From: a virus
Reading direction: 5' to 3' (one strand)
Virus record (IMG/VR): IMGVR_UViG_3300009420_000073
Location: 1-26,616 of that record
DNA length: 26,616 nt
Shown here: positions 2,491 to 23,151 of the stretch, piece by piece
Position numbering within the stretch: position 1 is the stretch's first letter
How the letters are laid out: every line of letters begins with the position of its first letter
Notes under the pieces: model-generated
What the model was told of the DNA's origin: nothing
The model's input: the letters and a program-made list of their open reading frames with translations, nothing else
Database searches by the model: none
Translations under genes and position numbers: made by a program

Positions 2491-2498
2491 TATTTATG
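2491..2498 (-). promoter_or_regulatory. Candidate T4-type late promoter
   Basis: The minus strand reads CATAAATA, matching the NATAAATA late motif reported for cyanophages and seven of eight bases of the T4 late motif TATAAATA. It overlaps the stop of gene A and lies about 40 bases before the TTG of gene B, in the longest non-coding gap of the window (2455-2493). In AT-rich DNA such 8-mers arise by chance several times per window, so this is tentative. Confidence 0.3.
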
Positions 2499-5118
2499 CT
2501 ACTCGCAACCACAAGGTTTTAGTTACTGATGTATAATTAGTAGTTACTGTATCCCCGGCAAATAGTTTTGTTCTTGATCCAGCAAACTGCGATGTATATG
2601 ACGAAGTAAATTGACTTCCAGAAAATGAACCTGTGAATTGCCCAGCATAAGCTGCTCTTGCATATTCAGAAGTATAAGCTGGCCCGGCTCTTGCTCTTGT
2701 ATACTGAGTTGTATATCCTACATCTCTTACATATGTTACTGTATATTGTCCTACGTAGCTTCTAGAGAACTGTCTTGCGTATTGTGCTGAATAAGTTCTA
2801 TTAAACTGTCTTGTATATTGACCGGCATAGACTCTCGTGTACTGCCCTCTTATGTAGTTACCTGAGTATGTTCTAGAGAATTGTCTAGTAAATTGTCGCT
2901 CATATTGTCCTCTTATAAACACTCTCTGATAAGATGGACTCAAATAGGTACCAGCATACTGTCTAGTATATTGTGTGCCTGCATATTGTGGGCCGCCTGT
3001 TGCTCTTACGTAGTATACTGTGTACTGAGCATTGTACTGAGGACCAGGTGTTGTTCTAGCATATGACGCTCTTGTAAATTGTGTGCCATCATATTGAGCA
3101 GTAAATTGTCTTGTAAATTGTGATGTGTACTGAGGCCCAGGATTGTCTCTAGTATATTGTCCGTCACTGTAGTTAGGGCCCGGAGTTGTTCTTGCGTATT
3201 GAGGTCCTGGAGTTGCTCTAGCGTATTGAGGGCCTGGAGTTGCTCTAGCGTATTGAGGGCCTGCTGTTTGTCTTGTATAGAGTGTACCCCTTAGGTATGC
3301 TCTTGAAAAACCAGGTCCGAAGCCTGCATATTGTGATGAGTACTGAGCTGAATCAGTGAAGGTACGATGATAAATTGGGTAAACAGGAGTACTCGTTGTA
3401 GGCCCAGAAGCGGTGTAGCCTCTGAAGTACGGAAGCTCACCCCAAGGTGCAGGAGCAGGACCGTTGTATAATCCTCTCCAGTACTGCATGCCTCGTGCGT
3501 AGTGCGGCCCTCTAGAGAACTGCGCTGGGGATTGATATATTCCTCTTACATAGACATCGGGTTCACCATAAGGACCAGGGGATGACGTGTAAATACTAAC
3601 CCGTAGATACTCAGAGCTGTATTGGGTGCCGTCTACTATCCTTGCATATTGAGCTGTATACGATCTTGCATATTGAGCTGAGTATGTTCTTGCATATTGA
3701 GCTGTATACGATCTAGCAAAATCTCTCCCGTATTGTGCTGAATAAACTCTTTGGTAGTTAACTGATGTGTAGCTCGGGCCTGTTGTTGATCTAGCATACT
3801 GAGCATGGTACTGTCGTCCGTAGTTAGCTGTGTATACTCTAGCGTATGATACTCTAGTAAATTGTCTTGCATATTGGCCTGCATAAGTTCTTCCGTAGTT
3901 TGTCGCGTACTGAGGCCCGGTTGTAACTCTGTAGAAGTTCTGTGCGTAGCTAGGGCCGTTATAATTACCGGTATATTGACTGCCGGATGCATATGCTGAT
4001 CCATCATATAAACTTCCGCCTGTTGCTCTTGCGTATGAGCCTGCATATTGTGGTCCAGGTCTTGCTCTAGTAAATTGGCCAGCGCTGTAACCAGGCCCAG
4101 GATTGGTCCTAGCGTAGTTACCATCTGTATAGTTCCCGCCGACAACACCTCTTGCATATTGACTAGAGTATGCTCTAAAGAATGTTCTTCCATATTGACC
4201 AGCATAATTTCTTTGGAAAGTTCCTGTGTAGCCTCTTGAATATTGCGCACGTGTAAACTGAGCACTAAATCCTCTAGTAAATTGTCTTGCAAATGATCCT
4301 GTATATTGTGCTGAATAATTACCACCATACTGTGTACTAGTAATATCTGGTAATCTATTTAATGCTGTACCTCTATTAATCCAAGTACCTGCTCCAGGTG
4401 CTGATGCTTGAAAAACATATTTTCCAATACCAGTTGATACAATTCTATTTCTTAATCTGAGAGTAAGCTTCACCATATCAGCATCAGACATCTCTCTTAG
4501 ATTAGCATCTATTTGTTTAAGAGGTCTTACTTCTGTTGGTGAGCCGTAGTCTGTTCTTCTCCAGAGTTTATATATGTCTCTTACATCATCATCATTAGCG
4601 TGAGTGGTAACAGAGTCTATCATCTGATCTTGGCCAATCCATGTACCTGTTCCAGGTGCTGATGTTCCAAGATAGTATGTACCTGTTCCTGCTGTTGATA
4701 AAGTTGTATTCGAAATCTTAGCGAAGGCTAAACTGAATATAGAGTTGTCCATTTCAGTATTTGATTGTGGAGATAGATCACCAGGACTAGAAGCGCCGCC
4801 ATGAGTTAATGGAGCAATTATTGATGATTCTGAAACTGTTGCAACGTTCTGTTTAAATGTATAAACAGTATTTGATGTTGTGCCTGAGTATGGGTGAGAT
4901 AAAAGCTCGGCACTTCTGCGTGTGTCCTCAAATGAACCTACACTAGTCCCGATTGAATCAATATTAAGGTCTCCAGTTTTATCACCAGAGTTAGATTCAG
5001 TTGCGAACTGTACTAAGATTTGTTTAACGGACCAATCCAACTCTGCGTCAGATGTGACTTGGACTCCGTTATTATAGATCCCATTTGCGTGTTTTCGCAT
5101 TATTAAGGGATTGGTCAT
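2494..5118 (-). CDS. Tyr/Arg-repeat virion protein A
   Basis: An 874-residue protein with two parts. Residues 1 to about 262 form an ordinary mixed domain (AELDWSVKQILVQFA, GDLNIDS, FEDTRRSAELLSHPYSG, TYYLGTSAPGTGTW, EMSDADMVKLTLRLRNRIVS, YVFQASAPGAGTW). From about 263 to 845 the protein is a run of Tyr/Phe-x-Arg repeats: 8-residue units such as YARSYTAQ and 13-residue units such as YARATPGPQ followed by YARA-type repeats. A short unique tail (LFAGDTVTTNYTSVTKTLWL) ends it. The N-terminal domain is shared with the next gene, so they are tandem paralogues. Repeat proteins of this style occur at the fibre end of marine T4-like phage genomes, and a host-adhesion role is inferred. AGGGG lies six bases before the ATG. 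Confidence 0.75.
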   Translation of the reverse strand: MTNPLIMRKHANGIYNNGVQVTSDAELDWSVKQILVQFATESNSGDKTGDLNIDSIGTSVGSFEDTRRSAELLSHPYSGTTSNTVYTFKQNVATVSESSIIAPLTHGGASSPGDLSPQSNTEMDNSIFSLAFAKISNTTLSTAGTGTYYLGTSAPGTGTWIGQDQMIDSVTTHANDDDVRDIYKLWRRTDYGSPTEVRPLKQIDANLREMSDADMVKLTLRLRNRIVSTGIGKYVFQASAPGAGTWINRGTALNRLPDITSTQYGGNYSAQYTGSFARQFTRGFSAQFTRAQYSRGYTGTFQRNYAGQYGRTFFRAYSSQYARGVVGGNYTDGNYARTNPGPGYSAGQFTRARPGPQYAGSYARATGGSLYDGSAYASGSQYTGNYNGPSYAQNFYRVTTGPQYATNYGRTYAGQYARQFTRVSYARVYTANYGRQYHAQYARSTTGPSYTSVNYQRVYSAQYGRDFARSYTAQYARTYSAQYARSYTAQYARIVDGTQYSSEYLRVSIYTSSPGPYGEPDVYVRGIYQSPAQFSRGPHYARGMQYWRGLYNGPAPAPWGELPYFRGYTASGPTTSTPVYPIYHRTFTDSAQYSSQYAGFGPGFSRAYLRGTLYTRQTAGPQYARATPGPQYARATPGPQYARTTPGPNYSDGQYTRDNPGPQYTSQFTRQFTAQYDGTQFTRASYARTTPGPQYNAQYTVYYVRATGGPQYAGTQYTRQYAGTYLSPSYQRVFIRGQYERQFTRQFSRTYSGNYIRGQYTRVYAGQYTRQFNRTYSAQYARQFSRSYVGQYTVTYVRDVGYTTQYTRARAGPAYTSEYARAAYAGQFTGSFSGSQFTSSYTSQFAGSRTKLFAGDTVTTNYTSVTKTLWLRVA
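2570..4338 (-). repeat. Tyr/Arg repeat region of protein A
   Basis: Degenerate tandem coding repeats. The commonest unit is 24 bp (8 residues, YARxYxxQ or FTRQFxAQ). Interspersed 39-bp units (YARxxPGPxYxxx) add a five-residue PGP segment. Unique interruptions such as SPGPYGEPDVYVRGIYQ occur in the middle. Repeats are more diverged than in the neighbouring paralogue. Confidence 0.7.
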
Positions 5119-8380: not shown

Positions 8381-8713
8381 TTATGCGCTCAATGCTATTG
8401 CTCTAATGTCAGCTATCCTCGGAACTCTGTATGTCTGTTCTGCTAGGAACAAGATCTTAATTTGGAAGAATTTAAACGTTTCATGTTCTTGTCCTCCAGA
8501 TGAGTAATAACGTAATCTGTATGTGCCGTCTGCTTGTGGATACTTAAATGCTGATTGCTTTTCAGCTGTAGCTACTTTATAATGTAGTCCGGCTGATATT
8601 GATTTATCAGCGGCCTGATCTAAGATTGCAACAGTTGTGTTTGCAGATGCTACTCGTCCGAGTACATAGTCATCTGATAGACCACCTTCAGTAACAACAA
8701 GAAGATCACCAGC
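8381..8713 (-). pseudogene. Start-less 110-codon continuation of the 573-residue gene
   Basis: After the TAA at 8714-8716 the frame stays open for 110 codons to a TAA at 8381. It has no ATG or GTG, and its only TTGs are far downstream. The residues are plainly coding: AGDLLVVTEGG, DYVLGRVASANTTVA, YPQADGTYRLRYYSSGGQEH, FKFFQIKILFLAEQTYRVPR, and the ending IADIRAIALSA. That ending resembles the usual C-terminus of this protein group (PRVxDFRAIA). It can only be made by readthrough or after loss of the stop. Possible readings are a programmed readthrough extension, a nonsense mutation (CAA to TAA would give YQAGDLL), or a sequence error. It fills what would otherwise be a gap of 334 bases before the next gene. 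Confidence 0.6.
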
Positions 8714-10435
8714 TTAATAAATTGTATTAGCAGTAGCTACTGTTACACTTGTACTTCCGTTTGTAACAGCGGCTGTACCTGTTTGTCTGGTTGTTGAGTT
8801 TAATGTAGGTGAGCTTGGAACTGTATACTTAAATTCTTTAAAATCATTAGCTGCGGTAGAAGATGAAAACATCTCTGCCTGTTCAGGCGCTTCATTTAAT
8901 CTTGTCCATTGCTTAGATACTAGTTTATCTTCATCATCAGATGATGTAAACATTCCATAAGCAACTATAGAGGTATTAGCTGGTCTGTAGCCTGTAACAT
9001 ATACGTTCAAGTCTTCTGCTTCTAACCCTGGGGCTAGTTGAACAGTCTTACTTAAATACTTAGATGCAGCAAGGCCTTGCCCGAATTCTTGTTCACCTGT
9101 TTGAAGATTATTAACTGTGTTCTCATAAGTCTCTAACGCTGATATGTCTGTGTCATAAATTGGTGAGACAGATCTGTTAGTCGTTTGAAGTTTAGAGGTT
9201 ATAACAAGAGACTTAGCTCCAGCTCCATTAACAATCTCATTTGATTTACTATGTACAGCAGCTTCTAGTCTAGCATTTTTATTAGTAATACCAAACATAA
9301 TTTGCTTTGTTTCTTTTGTAGCAAAAGCTGTCTTACTAGTTTGTGTAATAGTAGATGTTAGTGTTGTGCCTGACGGCTCAGTTTTGTATATCATAGGTTT
9401 AAAATAACTTGTTGTCTTATTTTGAACCTCTGTTATTGTTGAGTTAGCATTTGAAGTACATCCTTTAATAACATCAGTGTTAGCAAAGTAGTTACCAGAG
9501 CCAGAGGCTGCTGTTGAGTCTTTCAATGTCATTTCTACTGAACCAGTTTTACTTACGTACTTGGATACTCTTCCTGTAGGTGTCTTAGCAACTTTACCGT
9601 CTGACATACCGACTATCGGTGCACCCAATATTGTTAACTGAGTATCTGAATCTACTGATTTAATTTTAACTACATCAGCTGTATCTGTTGCAGCGGTTGA
9701 TCTAACTACAATTGAATCTCCTGATGCGAGGGTAGATGAGAAGCTTGTGCCTGATCCGACTATTACATTGTTACCAACTACTAATGTAGCTGTTCCAGCA
9801 ATAAATGCAGATGGAACTTTATATACTTCTTCGTTTTCAACGTATGCGCCAGAAACAGAAGTCAGTGAGAAGAACTCTAAGTCCCTGTTTGTTGTTGTTA
9901 CTAGGCCTGTTGTATTAGTATTATAAACAGCTTTATATAATCTCATTTTTAAATCAGCATCGAGTCTTGGTTCCCATACATCTGATGCTGAGACAAATAA
10001 TACTCCGTCTCCCCAATTACTGCCGATCGGCTTACCAGATACAATTTCATTCTCGCCTTGTTGTGTATACCAAATTCTATAATCTGGTGAACCAAAGTCA
10101 GGTTTGATTGCAAGTGCGTATTGAGTTCCTGTTTTAAGATATACAGGGCCATTAAAGACACATCTTGTGCTTACTTGCCCTGTTGTTGAGGTAGCCACTT
10201 CTGCTGATTCAAGTGCAATAGTACTCAATGGTAATACTGTTCTTGTTGGATATCCGTTTGAAACTTCTCTTATGTCTATGTTAACGCCACCGACACTATC
10301 TTTTGAATAGAAGAAGAGATCAACTGACGTGATATATAAGCCATCAGCATCAGGACACATCTCAGGAGTTACCCTGAACGTTTGTGCGATAGGATCATCG
10401 TTTAATAGGGCCTTGTTGTACCATTTATTTTGCAT
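8714..10435 (-). CDS. DUF4815 module, third segment (virion structural protein)
   Basis: A 573-residue protein, in the same frame as the 1141- and 232-residue segments. The N-terminal part (DDPIAQTFRV, GLYITSVDLFFYSKDSVGGV, NIDIREVSNGYPTRTVLP) is the 'DPLAQ-SF / VDLFF' domain seen in large marine T4-like structural proteins, a beta-rich jelly-roll-like segment that often follows the DUF4815 part in one polypeptide. Here it has its own start: ATG with AAGGA seven bases upstream. The remainder is beta-rich and Thr/Ser/Asn-rich. It ends ATANTIY before TAA at 8714, but the same frame continues for 110 codons without a start, again in family style. Role: probably peripheral baseplate or fibre-base protein. 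The true product may be 573 or, with readthrough, 684 residues. Confidence 0.8.
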   Translation of the reverse strand: MQNKWYNKALLNDDPIAQTFRVTPEMCPDADGLYITSVDLFFYSKDSVGGVNIDIREVSNGYPTRTVLPLSTIALESAEVATSTTGQVSTRCVFNGPVYLKTGTQYALAIKPDFGSPDYRIWYTQQGENEIVSGKPIGSNWGDGVLFVSASDVWEPRLDADLKMRLYKAVYNTNTTGLVTTTNRDLEFFSLTSVSGAYVENEEVYKVPSAFIAGTATLVVGNNVIVGSGTSFSSTLASGDSIVVRSTAATDTADVVKIKSVDSDTQLTILGAPIVGMSDGKVAKTPTGRVSKYVSKTGSVEMTLKDSTAASGSGNYFANTDVIKGCTSNANSTITEVQNKTTSYFKPMIYKTEPSGTTLTSTITQTSKTAFATKETKQIMFGITNKNARLEAAVHSKSNEIVNGAGAKSLVITSKLQTTNRSVSPIYDTDISALETYENTVNNLQTGEQEFGQGLAASKYLSKTVQLAPGLEAEDLNVYVTGYRPANTSIVAYGMFTSSDDEDKLVSKQWTRLNEAPEQAEMFSSSTAANDFKEFKYTVPSSPTLNSTTRQTGTAAVTNGSTSVTVATANTIY

Positions 10436-10438
10436 CTC

Positions 10439-10471
10439 TTATTCCTTCTTAAATCTTTTATAATTATTCAT
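10439..10471 (-). other. 10-codon mini-frame between two TAA codons
   Basis: Directly after the TAA at 10472 an ATG opens a 10-residue frame (MNNYKRFKKE) ending in TAA at 10439. It is in the same frame as the pieces on both sides. It is basic, and its end carries the AAGGA that serves the next gene. It is most likely a spacer, possibly coupling translation of the 573-residue gene. I cannot show that it is made. Confidence 0.3.
10443..10447 (-). promoter_or_regulatory. Shine-Dalgarno of the 573-residue structural gene
   Basis: AAGGA on the minus strand seven bases upstream of the ATG at 10435. It argues that this segment is independently translated, unlike the segments starting at 11170 and after 8714. 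Confidence 0.65.
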
Positions 10472-11170
10472 TTAGTACAAGTCCATATAATAGGTGTGAT
10501 AGTCCATATAGTCTACACCAGTATACCCGCCGCCTGAGCCTGTAATCGCTGTTTGAGCTGATGAGCCTGTGCCAGTTGTTGTTGTGTTTGCTGGCGCGTC
10601 TGTTACAACTGTTACTCCGGTATTAGTACTACTATTAGCATATGGATAACCATTAGCACCCCAGAAGTAATCTCCGTACCAGTCATTGTATGCCATAGTA
10701 GTATTTGAAGATGTGCCTGTATCTATATCTACTGAAGAGTTACTAAACTCATCTGTTGATGTATTCAAATCAAATGTTGGTGTTCTTGTTGATAGAGTTA
10801 CTGATTCTTTTTCTACACTATAATTATATGCATTATATGTTTCTGATGCAGTAGAGGTTGCTGTATCTAAGTTATCTATTGAGCTTACATCTGCAATCAT
10901 TAGCTGTCTATCACCTACCATGAATGTTCCTTTTGGTAGACTAAACACTGCTTGAATCTGACCTTTAAAGTCAGTAGTCGTCGTTCCACCTGGCACACCA
11001 CATATAAAGACGTTCTTAGCATTCTTAGCCATGTAAGTAGTTGGTGTTGCTATTGAATCAACAGTTCCTTTCTTTGTATATGCATTAATGTCTTTATTAT
11101 CAAAGAAGAAGTAATGCCTTGTATTTGGTCTCAGGCCTCTAGCAGCGATTCTAATATCTCTAGCTCTCAT
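10472..11170 (-). CDS. DUF4815 module, second segment (in frame after TAA)
   Basis: A 232-residue open frame from an ATG at 11170. It lies in exactly the same frame as the 1141-residue gene, which is separated from it by one TAA (11225-11227) and 18 sense codons (ESTTPVGDFVTDISISSF). Its opening MRARDIRIAARGLRPNTRHY, then FFFDNKDINAY, and the later DFKGQIQAVFSLPKGTFMVG read as an internal domain of large DUF4815-type proteins, not as a protein start. No purine-rich ribosome site precedes the ATG. The end is again Tyr/Gly-rich (GGGYTGVDYMDYHTYYMDLY). It may be made by readthrough of the TAA, by reinitiation, or be a broken downstream part. Structural role presumed; the coding nature is clear from residue pattern and frame length. 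Confidence 0.68.
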   Translation of the reverse strand: MRARDIRIAARGLRPNTRHYFFFDNKDINAYTKKGTVDSIATPTTYMAKNAKNVFICGVPGGTTTTDFKGQIQAVFSLPKGTFMVGDRQLMIADVSSIDNLDTATSTASETYNAYNYSVEKESVTLSTRTPTFDLNTSTDEFSNSSVDIDTGTSSNTTMAYNDWYGDYFWGANGYPYANSSTNTGVTVVTDAPANTTTTGTGSSAQTAITGSGGGYTGVDYMDYHTYYMDLY

Positions 11171-11224
11171 AAATGATGATATAGATATGTCTGTTACAAA
11201 ATCGCCAACTGGTGTTGTTGATTC

Positions 11225-14200
11225 TTAGTAACCCATTGATAGTTGCTGAGTTGTTTTTAAATATGTATCAGTAGTTGTTGTAGTAGTTTCGGTTACTGTT
11301 GTTTCTGTAGTTGCAGAAGTGCTTCCACCCCAGCCCCAATTGCCACCCCAATAGTCGCCTCCGTAGCCGCCGCCATACCCATTATAACTTCCGTAATTGT
11401 ATCCTTCATACCCGCCCCAACCATAGTATCCATAGTCTGTTGTCTGCGTGTCTGATGTAACCGTATTCTGAGTTTGAACATCTGAACTAGTACCAATCTG
11501 ATCAATATTTGTTTTTGTTAATGGATAGATTTCATTGAGATTGTCTACCATGTCCTGCATGCCAGAAGCTGTATCAATAAATATATCTTTTGTTCCTACT
11601 ACTGTTTCATCATATCCAGTATCATACATTGGGTCCAGACTAATAGATCCAATATATTTAAAATAAGTTTCAGTACAAGGTCTATGGCTTGTTGCTATGT
11701 CTTGTACAATAAATGGCTCTTCTTGTGCTGGAAGAGTCCATGTTCCGTTTAACTCAATTACATTGCTTGTGTTAGCAACTATTAAGTCAAGAGTATCTTT
11801 TACGAATGATGGATGAAATTCTGTTGCTGTTTCATCTATACCACATCTAAATTCCCTGTTGTTTAAATCAGCTGAATTAAAGTCAGTAGCTGGGTCAACT
11901 AAGATACCATTTTTAAATCTATCGTTGCCATTGGAGTCTGTAATAGCCATGTCTTTGGTTTTTGTTTCTAATTGAGTTAGCGTTGTGTAATACTCAATAT
12001 TTTTAAGACGCTTATCAATCTTACCGATCTCTTGCATTGTATAACGCCTAACGTTTTTAGGAGATATTATAACAGTCTGATTTTTACGTGTAAGTGTTCT
12101 TGCTTCTGCTGACGTCAGAGAAGGGTAAGGTGGTATTGCTATAGTACCAATCTGTAATGCGTCCGGTACCTTTGTTGGAGGTAATGGTCTAGAAGCTGCT
12201 GCTCCTCTCTTAGTAGTAACGTAACCTTCTTTTGTTATGTTAATACTATCTATTCTTCCTAGGTAAAATTCTATGTTACATTGGAGTTGCTTATTAGGAG
12301 CTGCTAAGAATAGGTCACCAGCAGGAAATGATTCTGTTGCTGATGGGTTAATTGTTGCTGCCCCTATAGTCGTTGCTACTACTCCTGTATTAGCAACTTG
12401 AGGTCTTACATCATGTACATCTCTTAGATCAGCTGAGAAGCCATTATCGCTCTCATAAACAGGTACTTCCTGAGGCGTTAATGGTGTTGTACCATCTGAA
12501 GCCAGGTAACTAGATACTGTAAAGAATCCAGATCCTGACGCAGGTGCGCCTGCATCAAAAACCTTTGCTTCAACTAATATTTTATCTGAAGCTCCAAGGC
12601 TCTGTGTTGGTAATTTAGATAGTTGACTGAGCCCGTAGAATGTATCCGTCTGGCCTTTTTCTAACTTAAATCCTGTTTTACTTTGTGTATTCGTATTTGC
12701 ATAAGTAGATCCAACATAGACATTTTCAATTGAGTCAACGTCTGGATGTCCTAAGGACCATGGACCAACGTTTGTTGTAGTATTATTAGCAGCATCTAAT
12801 TTAATAAAGATTGTTTTAAGTGTCTTTGTTAGTGGTGCTGCATTAACCTTCTTCTCAGGGAACGTTACATTCCATGCTGCTGAAGTAGATATAGTGCTGG
12901 CTAGAGCTCCTGTTAATACTATTGTTGCTGTACCAGATGAAACAGATATTGAGATTAAGTCAGTATCTACTGCTGCGTTATTAGCTATTCCGCCTGCTGT
13001 TACTAGTGGTCTAATTATAAACTCTTTCTTCTGACTTGATGTTAGTACTCCACTATATGGGAATACACCAGATACAGATGTAAGTGTTAAAGTATTAGAT
13101 GACGAAGTAACCTGCTTTTGTGTTCTATAAGTATAGTCAACACTATTTGTTGTTTTAATAGCATTTTTTGGAAATTGATATATGCCTGGTACACTTCTTG
13201 GCTCTTTAATTACAGCCTGTGAGTTTTCTAATACTGCATCAGCAATACCGGAGCCAGATATGGATGCCGCTTTAACATTTCTAAATGCTTTACCAGCGGA
13301 CATTTTAATATCAATTAAGAATAATTTGTATTGTGCTTTGACTGTGCCTTGTACACCTGCATGCCATTGGAACCCTCTAACCTTAGCTGTTCCTATTTCC
13401 GCTCCAGGAACTGCGTTAAGAGCTGCTCCGTTCGTTAAAGCGTCTTTAGCAGTATCTCTTAATGAGACTGTGGCCATTGTATTAGAATTAAATCCACCAA
13501 CGAGCTCATCAACAATAATATAGTTACCCATATTTTGAGTAGTGACAACTCCGTCTGTATTTGCAAATGCAACAGATTTCTGTACTGGCAATCTAGTTGT
13601 ATTATACTGCTGAGATCTATTACCTTTAACGTAATGATGTCCTGGTCCAACTAATAAATTAAAGTGACTTGTATTAGCCGCTTCAGCTGCCATGTTGTTT
13701 GATCTTATGCTGTAATCACCGCTCTCGTCATATGTTCTTTTTGACATTTCGTCATTAATAACATTGTACTGAGTAGTTAGTTTCTTAGCAATTGGAAGCC
13801 CGTTCTGGAAATCCATAACTGAAAGGAAGTTACTATTTGATCTAGAGTCTGCTGTTGGTATAGCAACTAAAAAAGGATCTAGTTTTAATCTATCTGCTCC
13901 AGGAGCATTTTCGTTATTGTATCCAGAAGCATTATCAAGCAATGTTGAGTCAGCATCTGAAGAAACTATTGATTCAGTTACATCAAAGCCGATTGATACA
14001 TTGTTTGGTTTATTAGTATACTTAGATGCAATAACTGTATTAGAGCTTACCTTAAGGAAATGTCCTTTTGAGTATATAAAGCCTTCTGATGTAGTAACAG
14101 CAAATCCATCGCCGACTGCTGTAGCTGCATTAGTTATTTGTGCACCAGCAACTGTAACTGTCTTAATTAATGTATTAGCATTATAAGCTGTGTTTGAGTG

Positions 14201-14650
14201 AATCTCAATATTTTCTGTTGTTGTGAATGTTTTAGCTTCTGATATACCTGTTGTAAGATAATCAATATACAAAGTTGTAAGGTTAGGATCTTGAGATGTT
14301 AGGCCGTCAGCATATGCTGCTACTTTAGCAGTTGTATTTGATGTTGCGCCTTTAGCGTAGTATCCTTTATATGTAGATGGTGCTACTGGAGAACCACCTG
14401 TATCTAGATCAGTGATCTTAACAAAGCTATAAGATCCGTCCAAAGACATACTACACCCTTCGATGATTGTGCCTTCTTTATAGATATTGTTACCAAATCT
14501 CTCAACTTGTTTTTGTAGTATCGTTTGAAGCTGGGTAAGCTCTCTTGCTTGCAAAGCAACAGCTGGTTTAAATAAGACGCGCTGGAATTTTTTATCCTCG
14601 CTGTAATCGTCGTAGTATGGGCTTACATTGAAATTTGTGTCTAAACTCAT
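11225..14650 (-). CDS. DUF4815-type virion structural protein, first segment
   Basis: A 1141-residue protein. Its N-terminus (NVSPYYDDYSEDKKFQRVLF, then PAVALQARELTQLQTILQKQ, VERFGNNIYKEG) is the signature of DUF4815 proteins, large structural proteins of marine T4-like phages usually found next to baseplate and fibre genes. A second recognisable block lies at about 900-1000 (VRRYTMQEIGKIDKRLKNIE, YYTTLTQLETK, NREFRCGIDETATEFHPSFV). The last 75 residues hold a Gly/Tyr/Trp tract, then a Thr run, ending QLSMGY before TAA. After that TAA the same frame stays open and continues in the same family style, so this may be only the first part of a longer protein. AGGA seven bases upstream supports the start. 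Probable role: peripheral baseplate or fibre-attachment protein; exact function unknown. Confidence 0.82.
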   Translation of the reverse strand: MSLDTNFNVSPYYDDYSEDKKFQRVLFKPAVALQARELTQLQTILQKQVERFGNNIYKEGTIIEGCSMSLDGSYSFVKITDLDTGGSPVAPSTYKGYYAKGATSNTTAKVAAYADGLTSQDPNLTTLYIDYLTTGISEAKTFTTTENIEIHSNTAYNANTLIKTVTVAGAQITNAATAVGDGFAVTTSEGFIYSKGHFLKVSSNTVIASKYTNKPNNVSIGFDVTESIVSSDADSTLLDNASGYNNENAPGADRLKLDPFLVAIPTADSRSNSNFLSVMDFQNGLPIAKKLTTQYNVINDEMSKRTYDESGDYSIRSNNMAAEAANTSHFNLLVGPGHHYVKGNRSQQYNTTRLPVQKSVAFANTDGVVTTQNMGNYIIVDELVGGFNSNTMATVSLRDTAKDALTNGAALNAVPGAEIGTAKVRGFQWHAGVQGTVKAQYKLFLIDIKMSAGKAFRNVKAASISGSGIADAVLENSQAVIKEPRSVPGIYQFPKNAIKTTNSVDYTYRTQKQVTSSSNTLTLTSVSGVFPYSGVLTSSQKKEFIIRPLVTAGGIANNAAVDTDLISISVSSGTATIVLTGALASTISTSAAWNVTFPEKKVNAAPLTKTLKTIFIKLDAANNTTTNVGPWSLGHPDVDSIENVYVGSTYANTNTQSKTGFKLEKGQTDTFYGLSQLSKLPTQSLGASDKILVEAKVFDAGAPASGSGFFTVSSYLASDGTTPLTPQEVPVYESDNGFSADLRDVHDVRPQVANTGVVATTIGAATINPSATESFPAGDLFLAAPNKQLQCNIEFYLGRIDSINITKEGYVTTKRGAAASRPLPPTKVPDALQIGTIAIPPYPSLTSAEARTLTRKNQTVIISPKNVRRYTMQEIGKIDKRLKNIEYYTTLTQLETKTKDMAITDSNGNDRFKNGILVDPATDFNSADLNNREFRCGIDETATEFHPSFVKDTLDLIVANTSNVIELNGTWTLPAQEEPFIVQDIATSHRPCTETYFKYIGSISLDPMYDTGYDETVVGTKDIFIDTASGMQDMVDNLNEIYPLTKTNIDQIGTSSDVQTQNTVTSDTQTTDYGYYGWGGYEGYNYGSYNGYGGGYGGDYWGGNWGWGGSTSATTETTVTETTTTTTDTYLKTTQQLSMGY

Positions 14651-14657
14651 TTAATTA

Positions 14658-14661
14658 TCCT
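14658..14661 (-). promoter_or_regulatory. Shine-Dalgarno of the DUF4815 gene
   Basis: AGGA on the minus strand seven bases before the ATG at 14650, overlapping the TAG stop of gp8 at 14660-14662. Confidence 0.6.
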
Positions 14662-16915
14662 AGAATTCTAATATTAGTTTGAAAGTTTCGCTTTGTGCGT
14701 TTCCTCTCGAAACTGGTGAAATGTTCTCTTTGTAAATAACTTCTCCAGAACCTTTCTTTACTTCAGGTAGCGTAACGCCTGTTATTTTCATTTGCGCAGC
14801 ACTAGTGGCTCCTGTAATATATTTATCACCCCCAGCAACATCAGATATTAAGAATGTATTCTTAGTATCAACTAACTCTACTGTGCCGTGAGATGATCCT
14901 GGTGTTATAAGAACATGGGCGTTTGCTAAGGACTCGCCTTGGTCTACTCTCTCGTCTTCTATTAAACCATTACCTTGTGTGCCAGCGTATGTGACATTCG
15001 CTGTATATTTAAAAGTCTGATTAAAAACTGTTGTTGGTTGAGTCACTGAGCTCACTACTGAATTCCCAGATGCATTGCCGTCAATAGTTTCTGTTGTAAA
15101 GAACCCTCTTATATCTTTCATTGCAATACCGGATGCATTTGCTGATACAACCGTCGCAGTTGCGTTAGATGTTGCACCTGTTATTGACTCTCCGGCTACA
15201 AATGTGCCAGCTGAGGATGAAAGTACTAATGTTCCATTTGCAAATAATGGATCTTTAATAATACCTATCTCTCTGAAATCGTTGTTGGCAGCTAATTTAG
15301 CTGACTCTGTATTAGCTATTGTTACACTAATACCTATTTTGTTTGCATGTAATTCTTTTTCAATATCTGAGCCATGGCCACCCTTTGGTGATATTATAGC
15401 TCTACAAGATGCTGAATTAGCAATGTAGCTATTTGATATTGCGTTTGTTACAAATCCTGTATTACCTTGAACACTGACAGTAGCATAAGAATAATTATTT
15501 CCTATTGCAATCATCTGAACGTTGGCGACTGTATTAGCATTTAGGACACCGTTAATAACAGCTCTTGCCTTTGCTCCAGTTCCATCACCGATTATAAGCA
15601 CCTGAGGACCAATTGTAAATTTAGAATCAGCTGCTAATGCTGTTGAGAGATTACTAGCTAATAATACTCTTTTTGAGCTTGCTGTAACAACATACTCATC
15701 AATAATACCTAGTTGACCTGATCCTGTTCCTTTCTCAACATAAAAAGATGACCCTTTATAGAAGTCTGTATTAGATGATAGTGAATCTCCTGCTTGTGTT
15801 ACTGAAGATATATTAGCGTATGTATTAGAGCTAACACCTCTAATCTGATCTACTGTATCAATTGTGCCTATAATAGACGATACAGTTAAGTGGGTAGCAT
15901 TCGAATCAACAATGACACCATTAGCTTGTCCAAGCCTTGATATAATATTGGCTGAAGATCCAGTTGATGTTGTAATAGTTACTGTAGGAGTTCCTACATA
16001 AGATTTTCCTCTATTAGAAATACTAACACCTGTTATACCGCCAGTTGCATTAACTGATGCGATTGTAGCTGTAGCATTAAGAGTCGAACCACCACCATTA
16101 TTAATAGTAAGAGTATCACTAGCTGAATATCCTGTACCACCCGATACTATTAATAATGACTCAACGTATTTTGTTATTACTTCTTCTTTTACAAACCCTG
16201 ATGTACTTCCAACATTAAATAATGAGGACGTTGATCCTGATATAGCTATGAGCTTTGTATCTCCAGCAACACCATATTCAGTAACGAAGCCGTTTGCATA
16301 TCCAGCATAGCCTGTACCGCCGTCTGTTACTTTAATAGCTTGTAGTGTGCCTTCTAGAGCAGCTGCAGTTACAGCAGTATTCGATACTACAGGCATAAAA
16401 GATGCTGTACTAAACTTATCATAGGTTGCTGTTGGAATTGTATATAGATACTTCCATTGATAGCCGTCTGACTCGGTTATGTATACTTCATCGTTAGCAG
16501 AGGTTTCTATTAACGAAGGTTGTTGCACTGAATTAGCACCGTAGTTGTTATCAAGGCATTTAAATACATTATAGTTAGATGTTTCTGATACAACAACATA
16601 GAAGTCTTTCTCTTCTAATTTTTCTGTTGTGTCGTCATACATGTCGTACGAAGTGTTATTAGCCCAAGTCTTTTTATTGACCATAGGTAACACGTCAGTA
16701 TCTGTAATTTGTTTTCCACCTATCATCTGATTGTATGTCTCATAGTGAGAGTTAGAAACACTTGTTAGAGTAGCGGGTGGATTATTTTCATCAGCCCATG
16801 GCTGTGGATTACCATAAAAGAGATACATTATAGTATTCGCAGGCTCAGTTAAAGACTCTTTAAACTGCTGTGCAGCAAATACTTTAAAATTTTGTGTTAT
16901 TAGTTCGTTTGCCAT
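14660..16915 (-). CDS. gp8: Baseplate wedge protein gp8, enlarged
   Basis: A 751-residue protein whose ends match gp8, a wedge subunit that binds gp7 and gp6 in T4 (334 residues). N-terminal signatures are EPANTIMYLFYGNPQPW (25-40), MIGGKQITDTDVLPMV (64-79), SYDMYDD, NVFKCLDN (116-123) and DGYQWKYLYTIP (150-161). The C-terminus (VIYKENISPVSRGNAQSETF, then KLILEF) is also the family ending. Between about 195 and 690 there are repeated beta modules not present in T4 gp8: SGGTGYSASDTLTI, ITTSTGSSA, SNATHLTVSSIIG. The same modules occur in the gp7-position protein, suggesting expansion or exchange between neighbours. The start lacks a good Shine-Dalgarno and lies seven bases after the upstream stop. 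Confidence 0.85.
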   Translation of the reverse strand: MANELITQNFKVFAAQQFKESLTEPANTIMYLFYGNPQPWADENNPPATLTSVSNSHYETYNQMIGGKQITDTDVLPMVNKKTWANNTSYDMYDDTTEKLEEKDFYVVVSETSNYNVFKCLDNNYGANSVQQPSLIETSANDEVYITESDGYQWKYLYTIPTATYDKFSTASFMPVVSNTAVTAAALEGTLQAIKVTDGGTGYAGYANGFVTEYGVAGDTKLIAISGSTSSLFNVGSTSGFVKEEVITKYVESLLIVSGGTGYSASDTLTINNGGGSTLNATATIASVNATGGITGVSISNRGKSYVGTPTVTITTSTGSSANIISRLGQANGVIVDSNATHLTVSSIIGTIDTVDQIRGVSSNTYANISSVTQAGDSLSSNTDFYKGSSFYVEKGTGSGQLGIIDEYVVTASSKRVLLASNLSTALAADSKFTIGPQVLIIGDGTGAKARAVINGVLNANTVANVQMIAIGNNYSYATVSVQGNTGFVTNAISNSYIANSASCRAIISPKGGHGSDIEKELHANKIGISVTIANTESAKLAANNDFREIGIIKDPLFANGTLVLSSSAGTFVAGESITGATSNATATVVSANASGIAMKDIRGFFTTETIDGNASGNSVVSSVTQPTTVFNQTFKYTANVTYAGTQGNGLIEDERVDQGESLANAHVLITPGSSHGTVELVDTKNTFLISDVAGGDKYITGATSAAQMKITGVTLPEVKKGSGEVIYKENISPVSRGNAQSETFKLILEF

Positions 16916-16922
16916 ATAATGT

Positions 16923-19823
16923 TTAACTCGTTGTAACGGCTACTCCGTCAGATTTTATTTTTGTAGTTGAGAAGACTTGTGTCTTAACAACCTCTCCGAA
17001 TAGCCTCGTCCCAGCAACATGAAGGATATCTTTAAGCTGCTCTTCATATTTAGCTAATGCAATCCCCGTTCTAGTAACATAACTATACTCTTGGTAATAG
17101 TCGCTATCCTGTACTTTATTTATATCACTTGCAAATGATGTTCTATCAGTCCAAGTACCTTCTCCAACGCCTTGTCTTGTTACTCCAGCTCTTCCGGATA
17201 CAATAAAGACTGTATTAGCTGCTGTTAAGCTTAATGGAGTATTTGCTTCATATCCATAGCCTGCATTTAACACTTCTAATCCATCTGCAACTCCGTTTGC
17301 TGTTATAACATTAGCTGTTATAGATGCATTTAATCCGATAGGTAAAGTAGTCTCGTCTTGATATACATGTTGTACGTTAGCTGTTGCGCCTGAGGTTGCA
17401 CCTGTTAAAGTTGCTCCTGGAACAAATGCTTGGCCGAAACTTAGTCTTCTTACTTTAACTTGATTAATTCCATTCTCTGTTGTACGTGTCTTAAATGTGC
17501 CTGTTGCAACTGCTGCTGTAGATACTTGAGATGTTGCCGCACCTGATAATGGTGCTACATTAGCTCCAGATGCTTGTGTCTGTATTTTAGTTGTGCCAGT
17601 AAATGCGCCTACTGGATTGATTATTTTAATATGAGTAGCATTAGCTGCTGCTATTTCACCAGATGCACCTGTAGTTATTTGTATAACACCTTCTCCAACT
17701 GTAAGTGCTGCGCTGTTAGCTGCTAGAGTAATACCATTTACTGATGAGTTACTATGCACTACTAGGTATCCAGGCAGTGATAATGTCTGTGCTAGGTTTT
17801 CATTCTCTATAAATGATCCGCTCTCATTACTAACAATGCATATAAGATCCCTTCTATTAAATCCTGATACGTATGGGTTGTGAGCAATTGCTACTGGGTC
17901 ATAATTATATCCTGATCCAGGATTAATAAAGTTAAGTGATCCAATTGAACCAATTGTAAAGTTAGCAAATGTAAGAGCATTATATAGAATCGTGGTTGTG
18001 TCGGCATGTCCTGATTTAGGAAGGCCGTATCCATAATCCATATTAACAGAAAGAGATGCGCCTGATCCTGTTGAAGTAGATATAGAAATTGTTCCGTTAG
18101 CTAGGTATTCAGATCCTGGCTCTACAACTGTTATTGAATTTGCTGAGCCAGCGTTCGCAGCATTAGCTGAGAATGTTCCGGTAGCTGTAACATTAGGACT
18201 ACCGCCTGAGATAGTGACTGTGTCTGCAGTTACATATCCTGAACCAGATAAAAAGCTAGTATTAACAATATTAGCAAAAGCGTTAGTGCCAAGGTTAGTA
18301 ATAGTTCTGCCGTTAGTAAATGCTCCGTTTGAGAGGTTACGTAGTACAAAGTGAGTAGCATTTGTTGTTGATTTAATAACACCAACTGCGCCAATACTAT
18401 TTGCAGCGGCGTGCATGTTTGATATTAAAGTTGCGCCTGATCCTGTAGATGTTGTTATACTTATAGCTGGAATACTTTGATAGTCTATTCCGTTATTAGA
18501 CATTACAACTCCAATAACTTGACCGTCGCCATCAGTCTGAATAGTAGCTGCAGCGTTTGTGGCTGCTCCTGCTGAAGTAAATACTACTGTATCAGAGTTT
18601 GAATATAGCGCGCCGTTTTGTGTGACGTATACCGAATTTACTACAAGATTAGCTTCAAATATATATTGCCCGTTTGAGAATCCGCCATTAGCGGCAAATG
18701 GAGCTCCTGAGTTAGCTCTTGAGTTAGTATACATTCCTGTATCAACTGTTACTGAATCTACAAATCCTATACCTGAATTAGATGCACCAGTATACAAATC
18801 AGTATATGGCCTTGGATCTTCAGCTGTATTATTAGCTCCTATGATATCTGTAAATAATGATAATTGTTCTTGTTCAGCGAGCACGCCGACTTCAAAGTCG
18901 CCGCCTACGCCTGCACCGACATTAGCTATTGAGGCTGTTGTATTACTTAATAGTCCAACTATTTTACCTGATGAATGATTAACAAATGGTTTGTTGTTAG
19001 CATTTAAACCATAGACAAAAGTATTGCTATTCTCACCAGTAATATATCTACCAATTACTTCCCCTACTGCAGTTGAATTAACTACTGCGCTAACTGCTGC
19101 GTTTGTGGTTGCATTAGAAACGTTCTTAAGAAATCCTATACCAGTAAAAGTACCATTTGCTATTTGGATCGATGCTGTGTTACCAGTTATTGTTAGTACA
19201 TGACCATTAGCCATTACTGCTGTTGTGTTAGTTCCTTGTACATGATCACCTGGTGCAAAGTCTTGAGTTCCTGCATTCCATGTTACTGTGGCCATTTTCT
19301 GTTCGGCCTTCTCGAATGTAAAGAAGTCAGTTATCTCTGTATTTGAATTGGCTATGTTGATTACTTCTAGTGTAGCATTACTAGATAATGTTCTTGTGTA
19401 CGTATTAGATATCGCATATCCATATCCTCCGTTAGCGAGATCAAAAGCTACTCTACCAGAGGCATCAACCGTGCTTGTTATTTTAGCAACTGCGTCTTGT
19501 CCTGTATTAGATACAACACTAAATCTATCGCCAACTGTAAAGTTTCTTCCACCATTAGTGATTACAATATCACTTAATGATCCTATAACTTGAGGCGCGT
19601 CATCGATGATACCATCATCGGTAATAAATTCTCCAGTCTTAAATGTACCAACAACGCTAGAAAGATATGCTAATGCTACTCTTTTGCCGTGAATTGTCTT
19701 TGTAACAACACTCTCAATAAATCCTGTTGAGCCTGTTGAGCTTCCAGTAATACCTTTACCGATTAAATTCTTGTTTCTTGACGATGGTGAAAGCTCAAGA
19801 TATACTGGCTTATAGTAGTTCTC
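16923..19823 (-). CDS. gp7-position wedge protein, C-terminal part (frame-interrupted)
   Basis: The frame is open from 19823 to the TAA at 16923, 966 codons. The first in-frame ATG is at 19295 (MATVTWNAGTQDF), but the 176 codons before it are clearly coding and of the same style (GKGITGSSTGSTGF, VVGTFKTGEFITDDG, GGYGYAIS), so 19295 is not a true start. No start codon with a ribosome site exists near 19823. The part must be joined to the 150-residue frame upstream. It contains repeated beta modules (GSGYxxxDTVTIS, ITTSTGSGA, NATHFVLRNLSNGAF). It ends in a compact domain (TDRTSFASDINKVQDSDYYQ, then EEQLKDILHVAGTRLFGE) typical of T4-like marine wedge proteins. Expected role: outer wedge scaffold. 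Confidence 0.75.
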   Translation of the reverse strand, partial: ENYYKPVYLELSPSSRNKNLIGKGITGSSTGSTGFIESVVTKTIHGKRVALAYLSSVVGTFKTGEFITDDGIIDDAPQVIGSLSDIVITNGGRNFTVGDRFSVVSNTGQDAVAKITSTVDASGRVAFDLANGGYGYAISNTYTRTLSSNATLEVINIANSNTEITDFFTFEKAEQKMATVTWNAGTQDFAPGDHVQGTNTTAVMANGHVLTITGNTASIQIANGTFTGIGFLKNVSNATTNAAVSAVVNSTAVGEVIGRYITGENSNTFVYGLNANNKPFVNHSSGKIVGLLSNTTASIANVGAGVGGDFEVGVLAEQEQLSLFTDIIGANNTAEDPRPYTDLYTGASNSGIGFVDSVTVDTGMYTNSRANSGAPFAANGGFSNGQYIFEANLVVNSVYVTQNGALYSNSDTVVFTSAGAATNAAATIQTDGDGQVIGVVMSNNGIDYQSIPAISITTSTGSGATLISNMHAAANSIGAVGVIKSTTNATHFVLRNLSNGAFTNGRTITNLGTNAFANIVNTSFLSGSGYVTADTVTISGGSPNVTATGTFSANAANAGSANSITVVEPGSEYLANGTISISTSTGSGASLSVNMDYGYGLPKSGHADTTTILYNALTFANFTIGSIGSLNFINPGSGYNYDPVAIAHNPYVSGFNRRDLICIVSNESGSFIENENLAQTLSLPGYLVVHSNSSVNGITLAANSAALTVGEGVIQITTGASGEIAAANATHIKIINPVGAFTGTTKIQTQASGANVAPLSGAATSQVSTAAVATGTFKTRTTENGINQVKVRRLSFGQAFVPGATLTGATSGATANVQHVYQDETTLPIGLNASITANVITANGVADGLEVLNAGYGYEANTPLSLTAANTVFIVSGRAGVTRQGVGEGTWTDRTSFASDINKVQDSDYYQEYSYVTRTGIALAKYEEQLKDILHVAGTRLFGEVVKTQVFSTTKIKSDGVAVTTS

Positions 19824-20215
19824 TCAGAAGGTTTAATTATTCTTGTTGAGGGAAGGAATACTTCTACTTCTTGACCATATAATATTTGCAGTAATAACTC
19901 TACTGATCTTGCTGAACCTTTTGCTTGATAAAGATCACTAATATGTTTAAGTAAGAATCTATCATCAACTGTTGTTTGCAGTTGAGTTCCTTCCAAGTAG
20001 GTTTTCTTAAAGTGAATAATAAAGTCAGTTACTGTGTCATCAATATCTCTATTAGCTCTTAGCTGTCTTAACACCTTAGTAGACTTACCAGTAGTCTCAA
20101 GCCATTCATAATAGGCTAAGATAAATGCTACTAGTTCAGGCTGCGTGTCCTGGAATCTTTCTGGGAATTGGTTTACAATAAAATTGGAAACATATTCCGG
20201 TGTCAAGTTTGACAT
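19763..20215 (-). CDS. gp7-position wedge protein, N-terminal part (frame-interrupted)
   Basis: This 150-residue frame starts one base into the gp6 stop. Residues 1-130 look like a complete, well-conserved N-terminal domain: FIVNQFPERF, PELVAFILAYYEWLE, NRDIDDTVTDFIIHFKKTYL and LLKHISDLYQAKGSARSVEL, then RIIKPSE. The last 18 residues (from RTTISQYILSF) look unnatural. Moving to the other frame at about 19820 gives NYYKPVYLELSPSSRNK, a natural continuation, which stays open into the next large frame. The complete protein would be about 1097 residues, lying between gp6 and gp8 where T4 has gp7 (1032 residues). I therefore read this as the front of a gp7-position wedge protein; orthology to gp7 is inferred from order and size, not from visible identity. 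Confidence 0.8.
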   Translation of the reverse strand: MSNLTPEYVSNFIVNQFPERFQDTQPELVAFILAYYEWLETTGKSTKVLRQLRANRDIDDTVTDFIIHFKKTYLEGTQLQTTVDDRFLLKHISDLYQAKGSARSVELLLQILYGQEVEVFLPSTRIIKPSERTTISQYILSFHHRQETRI

Positions 20216-22035
20216 TATAATCTCTCTTGTACTGCTGTTATGCTTATATCACTTGCATCAAGTTGTAGTATAGATGCTTTCTTAGTTGTTATATCTCTGT
20301 TTACACATCTAGCGTAGACTTTATATGTTGATCCTATATATGAGCTTATTAATAATGAATTAATATTAACTAGTCCAGATGTATAGTCTACTGTGCCTGC
20401 GTCAGCTAATAGCACAACAAAGTTATCAGCGCTATCTGTCTTAACAATCTTTAATTTTCCTCTTCCGTCATCAACAATAAACGCTGCAGTGTCTGTTAAG
20501 TATGTAAACTGAGTAGATGTAATTGCTGGTTTGTAAAGAGAGTATTTTGTTGTTGCTGCGACAAACTCTTCATCGTTTTGTAGCTCATTATTATATCCTA
20601 TAACATAAGACGCTGGCAGCGTTGCTGAGGGAGTAAATTTCTTATATAATCTTGTTACTAACTGACTTGAGACAACACTAGTGTCGCATGCGTCGATAGC
20701 TGCAACTGCTTTTGAGTTTCTATATGTTACATCAAATGCATTAATATTAGTATTTGCAAATGCACTCAGTGCATTAGTTGCTTTAGCTTTAATTCCTGAG
20801 ACTGTTTGGGTCGTTACACTTATATTATAGTTTACTTTGCCTTCGACTTCAAGGTTTAATATTTCTGGTGTTACTACTTTTACGTCTATACTAATAGGAG
20901 TTCTAGAACTTAAGTAGCTCTGTATAGCTCGTTTTGTTGATTGAGGAACACCATCAGCGTCAGCAAGATCAACAGCAATAATTACCTTACCAAATTCAGG
21001 TGGTGATAACTGCTCACCGCCAAATGCTAATACATTAACAACTGAAGGAAATTCCTTCTGTACAAGAATTTTATAATCATTAGCTGTTACTGCTCGCTCT
21101 TGAACTTGGAATGCTTTAGGAGCATTGAATTTAATCTGAGCGATTGTCTCTGCTTCTGTTCCGCCGATTGAATTAGTTACTGTTGTTGCAACCGAATCAT
21201 GGCCGCCTATTTTCTTTCCAGCTGTGAATATCTTACCATTGTTGCCAGTTAGGCCAGAGCTCTGTCTATATTTAAGTTGTATGATATTACCTACAGATGG
21301 CTTCTTACCTAATACACCGTCTCCAAATGTTATATTAAACTTCTCGTTTTGAGCTGGCTCAATAAAGTATACATTACTTGTTGATGTTAATCCAAAGACT
21401 GTATCAGCTTTTGACCATACCGCATTAACAGAAGACGTGTTGCTCTCTCTAACTGTTACGGTTATATGTCGTGTATCTACTTCCTTATTACTAATGGAGA
21501 CAACGTGGGTATTAACGGCTGAGCTAGTGATCTGAGTGTTCTCATCAATAATCTTACCTTCATAAAGAGGTATATTATCTGTTTCATACACAGTTGAGCC
21601 AGTAGAGTTAGTAGATGGCTTTACGATAACATCATCCTGTGTAGAGAATGTTTTAGTAGCTCCATTAATTGATGAGGTAAACGATGTCCATTTTGGTACT
21701 GATATACTTGTTACGTCTATTGTAGGGGTTAGTTTTAGATCTATTACTGCTTTAGCAGAATGATAGGACTGCGGTACATAGTTTAATTCTTTAGCGTGAG
21801 ATACAACACTGTCTCTCAATTCAGCTGTGTCTAAAAACATCTCATTAGCGAGCATATTAGTATAGAAGTTATTCTTATACGTGTTATATGATAGAACGTC
21901 TATCAGTGTGTTAATATTAGATCCTTCAAAGTCGTAGTCTCTTATATTAGACTGTCCCTTTAAGAATGCTTTGAGATCAGTCTTAATTGTATTAAAGTCT
22001 AAATCTACTACTGATGTTGCTGAGTTGGCGGCCAT
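20215..22035 (-). CDS. gp6: Baseplate wedge protein gp6
   Basis: A 606-residue protein of the gp6 / Baseplate_J family (T4 gp6 is 660 residues), the clamp that joins neighbouring wedges into the inner baseplate ring and drives its opening on infection. The N-terminus is diagnostic: DFNTIKTDLKAFLKG, then DYDFEGSNINTLIDVLSYNT, NMLANEMFLDTAELRDSVVS and HAKELNYVPQS, all within the first 110 residues. A central block near 255-330 (FGDGVLGKKPSVGNIIQLKY, then ERAVTANDYKILVQKEFPSV) is the typical Baseplate_J core. The start overlaps the gp25 stop by one base. The stop also shares one base with the ATG of the next gene. Confidence 0.93.
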   Translation of the reverse strand: MAANSATSVVDLDFNTIKTDLKAFLKGQSNIRDYDFEGSNINTLIDVLSYNTYKNNFYTNMLANEMFLDTAELRDSVVSHAKELNYVPQSYHSAKAVIDLKLTPTIDVTSISVPKWTSFTSSINGATKTFSTQDDVIVKPSTNSTGSTVYETDNIPLYEGKIIDENTQITSSAVNTHVVSISNKEVDTRHITVTVRESNTSSVNAVWSKADTVFGLTSTSNVYFIEPAQNEKFNITFGDGVLGKKPSVGNIIQLKYRQSSGLTGNNGKIFTAGKKIGGHDSVATTVTNSIGGTEAETIAQIKFNAPKAFQVQERAVTANDYKILVQKEFPSVVNVLAFGGEQLSPPEFGKVIIAVDLADADGVPQSTKRAIQSYLSSRTPISIDVKVVTPEILNLEVEGKVNYNISVTTQTVSGIKAKATNALSAFANTNINAFDVTYRNSKAVAAIDACDTSVVSSQLVTRLYKKFTPSATLPASYVIGYNNELQNDEEFVAATTKYSLYKPAITSTQFTYLTDTAAFIVDDGRGKLKIVKTDSADNFVVLLADAGTVDYTSGLVNINSLLISSYIGSTYKVYARCVNRDITTKKASILQLDASDISITAVQERL

Positions 22036-22439
22036 TATCTTACCCTTTTAAGTATTGTGTTGAATATCTGTGGAGCTTCTGCATTAGTAATATAATAAGA
22101 TATCTCAACATTGTATTGATTGCGATCTGAATCTGATTCAATAATGACGTCAATAAGCTGACACCTCGGTTCATATGCTTGAATAGTATTCGTTATGGCT
22201 TCCCTTAGGTTGTAGACCGTCTGTGGTGTGTCTAGCTCAAATAAAAGCCCCATTACGTTTGAGCCTATATCTGCTTGAAACGGCCGTTCGTAAAAATTAG
22301 TTGTTAATAGGTTGACTATAGAATTTTGTATTGCATTCTCATTCTTATTAAGCAGCAAATCATCATTAGCAGGATTCACAGACATATCGCCTCTAATATC
22401 GGTGTATACTGTTCCTAATTTAATATTTGTCGTAGCCAT
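22035..22439 (-). CDS. gp25: Baseplate wedge protein gp25
   Basis: A 134-residue protein of the gp25 / GPW_gp25 family, which seeds sheath polymerisation at the inner baseplate and is among the most conserved parts of contractile tails. T4 gp25 is 132 residues, so the length fits. Visible signatures are TNFYERPFQADIGS at about 47-60 and the family's EPR motif at residues 90-92 (QAYEPRCQL). The stop TAA shares one base with the ATG of gp6 (TAATG), so gp25 and gp6 are translationally linked, as expected for partners in the wedge core. No clear Shine-Dalgarno precedes the start. Confidence 0.93.
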   Translation of the reverse strand: MATTNIKLGTVYTDIRGDMSVNPANDDLLLNKNENAIQNSIVNLLTTNFYERPFQADIGSNVMGLLFELDTPQTVYNLREAITNTIQAYEPRCQLIDVIIESDSDRNQYNVEISYYITNAEAPQIFNTILKRVR

Positions 22440-22443
22440 ATGT

Positions 22444-23151
22444 TTATTTATCTACCGGGGTGAAGGGCAGTCCTGCCTTGATAGCAGAAAGTTCTGCTTC
22501 AAGTTCTTCTATAGCTGGTGTTAATGCTTCTTTCATTATCTTTTCAAAATTAACCGTGTTTAAAGCCTCTGTCATTTCCTTAGCTGCTTCCGTTAAAGCT
22601 GATGGATCAGGTATCTCTATTTCTATCTTTAATTCAATAGCAGCTATCTCTGGCGCTGTGGATGGTGTTCCTTTTTCTGTCTGTTTACCGTCTGCATCTT
22701 TTTCTATATTAGGAACCATCTTACAGAGATTAGCTAGATCAATTTTACCTGATGTTATATCAGCAATCATACCATCAACATTAGGAATGTCTGGAAACTT
22801 CTCTTTTAAGCCTTCAAGGTCTGCTAGTGCTTGTATCTTATCTAATGGGTTAGCAGAGTTAAGCTTCCCCATTATCCCTTTAATGTCACCTTGAAGACTG
22901 GGCAGTTCTGGAAGCTCAGGCAGAAGCCCTTCTAGTGAAGGCATCTCTGGAAGCTCAGGCAGCTCTATTGCAGGTAGCATTGACTTTAAGTCACCAGCCA
23001 GTTCTCCAATTTTAGCATCTAGTTCACCGGCGAGAGAGTCCAAAGATCCCATTATGCCGTCTGCACCAGCTATTAAGCCGTCCAAAGCTCCAGTGAGCTT
23101 GTCCTTTGCTCCATTTAGCTTCTCTAATCCTTTTCCTGGTCCACAACTCAT
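22444..23151 (-). CDS. Unrecognised 235-residue protein between spike and gp25
   Basis: A 235-residue protein beginning MSCGPGKGLEKLNGAKDKL. Residues about 10-65 are a Leu/Gly/Ala/Asp stretch with helical periodicity. Residues about 66-95 are a Pro/Glu/Leu segment with repeated LPELPxxPSL steps. A helix-rich Glu/Ala tail (about 175-225) follows. There is no signal peptide or membrane segment. The Cys-Gly-Pro-Gly start directly after a spike gene could suggest a tip or hub accessory, but I see no PAAR motif. It has the best ribosome site in the window (AGGAG, spacing six), overlapping the stop of the spike gene. It ends four bases before gp25. Similar short proteins with this opening may occur in marine T4-like phages, but I cannot assign a function. 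Confidence 0.75.
   Translation of the reverse strand: MSCGPGKGLEKLNGAKDKLTGALDGLIAGADGIMGSLDSLAGELDAKIGELAGDLKSMLPAIELPELPEMPSLEGLLPELPELPSLQGDIKGIMGKLNSANPLDKIQALADLEGLKEKFPDIPNVDGMIADITSGKIDLANLCKMVPNIEKDADGKQTEKGTPSTAPEIAAIELKIEIEIPDPSALTEAAKEMTEALNTVNFEKIMKEALTPAIEELEAELSAIKAGLPFTPVDK

Follow-up and report, generated by a model that had tools for sequence, protein, structure and literature searches.

Baseplate proteins of the VrlC/DUF4815 family are known from T4-like pelagimyophages and cyanomyophages, in which the gene lies downstream of the gp8 wedge gene; a member of the same family occupies the same place in the DNA analysed here. In Pelagibacter phage Mosig, VrlC is encoded by one gene of 6138 bases, whereas the clade of the present sequence has two genes, here called A and B. 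Caulobacter phage Cr30 likewise carries two adjacent genes (108537-112142 and 106157-108520) behind a baseplate wedge gene, and the second of them matches B with 98% coverage and 34% identity. Neither Cr30 gene is interrupted in the annotation of that record, whereas A and B each are. The baseplate DUF4815 protein of Staphylococcus phage phi812 (ORF65, PDB 9euf) is a single chain of 1152 aa, distant in sequence from A and B; A matches its residues 73-257 and B its residues 792-948, on the same chain.

Reading frame and gene content

The window, i.e., the whole stretch of viral DNA that was analysed (26,616 nucleotides), carries on its minus strand a single constant frame of 2090 codons, which in translation runs from an ATG at 14650 to a terminal TAA at 8381 and contains four further TAA codons (Table 1), three of them directly after a Tyr codon. 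A sequence-only reading had described this frame correctly and had offered programmed readthrough yielding a nested set of proteins, stepwise splitting of one ancestral gene, or sequence errors as its cause. The lengths given there for the successive pieces (1141, 232, 10, 573 and 110 residues) hold for all but the second: the piece between TAA 11225 and TAA 10472 (piece 2) has 250 codons from stop to stop, and the figure of 232 is a count from an internal ATG at 11170, which lies inside a conserved motif. Pieces 3 and 4 below are those of 573 and 110 residues.

Table 1. Features of the reading frame and of the broken wedge gene in the window.
Feature	Positions	Strand	Basis
Wedge gene, baseplate, broken near 19,820 into 19763-20215 and 16923-19295	16923..20215	-	Single ORF in L010, L012 and L013
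Gene A, encoding the N-terminal part of a DUF4815/VrlC-type baseplate protein	10472..14650	-	Pfam DUF4815, phrog_358, close relatives
TAA inside gene A	11225..11227	-	Sense codon in relatives
TAA ending gene A, normal stop	10472..10474	-	Position matches the A stop of split relatives
A/B gap of 36 bases: open for 10 codons up to TAA 10439-10441	10436..10471	-	Direct reading
Gene B, separate gene for the C-terminal part of a VrlC-type baseplate protein	8381..10435	-	phrog_358, close relatives
TAA inside gene B	8714..8716	-	Sense codon in relatives

The proposal that these pieces belong to a DUF4815-type protein of T4-like phages was confirmed by profile matches. Piece 1 matches Pfam DUF4815 (6e-58) and gene A matches phrog_358 (4e-201); the 2056 positions of phrog_358 are matched in order by A (1-473), piece 2 (1189-1252) and gene B (1420-1587 and, in piece 4, 2021-2055). 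The gene just upstream (14660-16915) matches Phage-Gp8 (1.3e-10) and phrog_438, a baseplate wedge family, so that the DUF4815/VrlC gene adjoins a gp8 baseplate wedge gene in the window, the same order as in Mosig and phiM12. According to these similarities, gene A is predicted to encode the N-terminal part, and gene B the C-terminal part, of a VrlC/DUF4815 baseplate protein of a marine T4-like myophage.

Ahead of their stops, genes A and B have 1392 and 684 codons, respectively, with one internal TAA each. In six close relatives (L004-L009, with approximately 60% aa identity), gene A is a TAG-ended ORF of 1397-1406 aa, uninterrupted except in L007, and gene B is a stand-alone ORF of 682 aa with its own ATG, running off the contig in L008. 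Adjoining genes share a frame in 5 of the 12 neighbouring pairs of the window, including the pair with the gp8-like gene just upstream, and the constant frame is therefore no evidence for one gene; the sharing of a frame by A and B is chance, a one-in-three coincidence. Judged by its relatives, the region 14650-8381 comprises two adjacent genes, not a single one, for predicted baseplate proteins.

The A/B boundary and the split of the gene

Within the A/B gap, a Shine-Dalgarno-like AAGGA precedes the ATG at 10435, and this position, together with the relatives, marks it as the probable start of gene B. TAA 10439 is between-gene sequence only. In L004-L009 the ATG of B lies 8 bases past the end of A, in a frame that differs from that of A. 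The pair is also split in L171, L095 and L101/L179, with other stops and other frames. Split relatives have short boundaries comparable to that of the window, with the second-gene ATG just after (none was assigned in L087). As a finding that would refute it, the sequence-only reading had named relatives in which the pieces are separate genes, each with a start codon and ribosome site of its own, and this is what was found at the A/B boundary.

Among the fetched contigs, 82 have A+B in one ORF and 21 have them in two, several of the latter belonging to lineages other than that of the window. Because most distant relatives have A+B fused, the split is the derived state. The distribution shows that a single ancestral gene has been split in the clade of the window. 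The earlier idea of stepwise splitting thus stands for TAA 10472 and TAA 10439, as one split and not as four steps. A modest by-product of our analysis concerns the large VrlC baseplate gene: most of the relatives found have it as a single fused gene, and several lineages have it in two.

Because A and B are also in one frame in L094 and L108/L109, readthrough in frame across the A/B boundary was weighed as well; it was rejected, since in these contigs the stop is followed by an ATG that has a GGA-type ribosome site ahead of it.

As a side observation, the VrlC/DUF4815 gene is split in several lineages (L027/L029/L030/L032, L087, L094, L108/L109, L171 and L174/L176/L177). The place of the split varies along the protein; in L174, L176 and L177 it seems to lie upstream of the motif that comes after site 11225.

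Internal TAA codons and the frameshift near 19,820

The sequence-only reading had proposed an alignment with related phages to see whether the internal stops are conserved; they are not. At the column of site 11225 a stop occurs in 0 of 74 distinct contigs (10 more are gapped there), and the aligned codon is Glu in the close relatives, Lys in L171 and Gln in L095. At site 8714 the count is 0 of 13 (3 more contigs gapped), and the aligned residue is Ser, Asn or Ala. The sequence behind the stops is preserved: identity to the close relatives is 51-53% after TAA 11225, with no further stops before the end of A, and 61-66% after TAA 8714, again stop-free. With bases shuffled, approximately 17 and 7 stops would be expected in pieces 2 and 4, respectively, whereas none was observed. 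At 51-66% identity to their relatives, the pieces downstream of the internal TAAs are genuine coding sequence, and because they are conserved and stop-free, their translation ceased only very recently, if it has ceased at all. By alignment, both TAA 11225 and TAA 8714 are interruptions, of gene A and gene B, respectively, that none of the relatives found shares with the window contig.

No twin covering site 11225 or site 8714 was found in IMG/VR with DNA patterns that left the stop codon open, nor in species genomes by protein searches; piece 3 of B as a single query had no match among viral contigs. The fold model of the C-terminal half of A (mean pLDDT 30) was too poor for use. The model of intact B from L009 is weak overall (mean pLDDT 51), and only its C-terminal part was used; site 8714 corresponds to residue 573, within the best-modelled residues 456-682. 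All hits of a Foldseek search with the B model at E <= 0.001 were entries of the phi812 baseplate.

A third gene of the same contig is also damaged. The baseplate wedge gene broken near 19,820 is intact in relatives (1090-1096 aa), and a twin contig, L096, with 99.83% identity to the window at 18764-22846 (4084 bases), is without the frameshift. Only 4 internal substitutions, all transitions, separate the two in these 4 kb. Within this comparison the frameshift is private to the window contig, and the absence of the shift from the twin led us to reject programmed frameshifting at this place.

Similar isolated lesions were seen elsewhere in IMG/VR. Lone 1-base indels occur in the contig pairs holding L011, L031, L076 and L106/L107. 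The contig that holds both L007 and L011 has a private TGA in gene A at a codon that is sense in its near-twin L006/L010; L011 also differs from L010 by a one-base indel.

Origin of the internal stop codons

We consider it very probable that the region contains two late genes that arose by a split, that the TAA codons at 11225 and 8714 are errors, and that translation in the living virus is ordinary. TAA 10472 ends gene A, gene B would start at its own ATG behind the ribosome site, and full-length A and full-length B would most likely be made. TAA 11225 and TAA 8714 would most likely be consensus errors of the metagenomic assembly and, less likely, genuine mutations of a defective molecule. 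The presence of three unshared lesions (11225, 8714 and near 19,820) suggests that the window contig contains sequence errors or represents a defective molecule, and because the frameshift is private, the two TAAs are likely to have arisen in the same way. Sequence error, one of the accounts offered from the sequence alone, is the best reading of both sites, as the same contig has a frameshift that its close twin lacks. A mild tension with this reading comes from the substitutions: approximately 4.5% of random substitutions yield stops, so two nonsense errors would imply approximately 44 substitutions in 21 kb, and a uniform error rate fitted to them predicts approximately 8-9 in the L096 comparison vs. 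the 4 seen. Uneven coverage could explain the difference.

The same scarcity of differences from L096 indicates a sequence quality that is not very poor overall, and together with the damage to three structural genes in one contig, a lesion in each, it speaks for real mutations at both internal TAAs, whether a defective variant was assembled or the genes are decaying. We regard this as unlikely. All the sequence past the lesions is conserved and stop-free, so decay would have to be very recent; long loss of such baseplate genes is not expected in a phage, and the twin is intact at the lesion of the third broken gene.

Programmed readthrough of TAA 11225 and TAA 8714, by which A and B would each be made in a short and an extended form, would agree with the maintained frame and the conserved downstream sequence, and at site 11225, which follows a Thr/Tyr/Gly-rich stretch that is linker-like in composition, an earlier end of the product would be tolerable. 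However, a programmed signal would be expected in at least some relatives, and the stop is kept at neither site; a stop at site 8714 would cut into the C-terminal part of B, which is modelled with confidence, and this argues against a useful shorter product; the frameshift in the third gene is contig-specific; and no tRNA gene, hence no suppressor, was found in the window or in ten relative loci, all fragments of larger genomes. We therefore hold readthrough to be very improbable. The nested set of proteins suggested earlier finds no support, as no relative has the internal stops and B begins in the close relatives at an ATG of its own, out of frame with A. A readthrough gained recently in this lineage only, with two baseplate proteins each made in two lengths, is likewise most improbable.

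Reassignment of TAA as a sense codon in this virus would account for two in-frame TAAs within conserved coding sequence, but it is hardly credible: a reassigned TAA would be unused as a terminator and present inside many genes, whereas here TAA ends 8 other scored genes (its use as a normal stop had been recognised before) and lies inside none of them, and the residues of the relatives differ between the sites (Glu vs. Ser or Asn). Validated recoding in crAss-like phages concerns TAG (PMC9523058).

The four-TAA frame serves as a caution that adjacent genes in the same frame, combined with contig-specific lesions, can mimic a readthrough cassette.

Elsewhere in the window, the tandem genes at 2494-5118 and 1-2454 both match one gene of L013 and look like duplicated tail fibres; the second ends in a YGxVYYG repeat.
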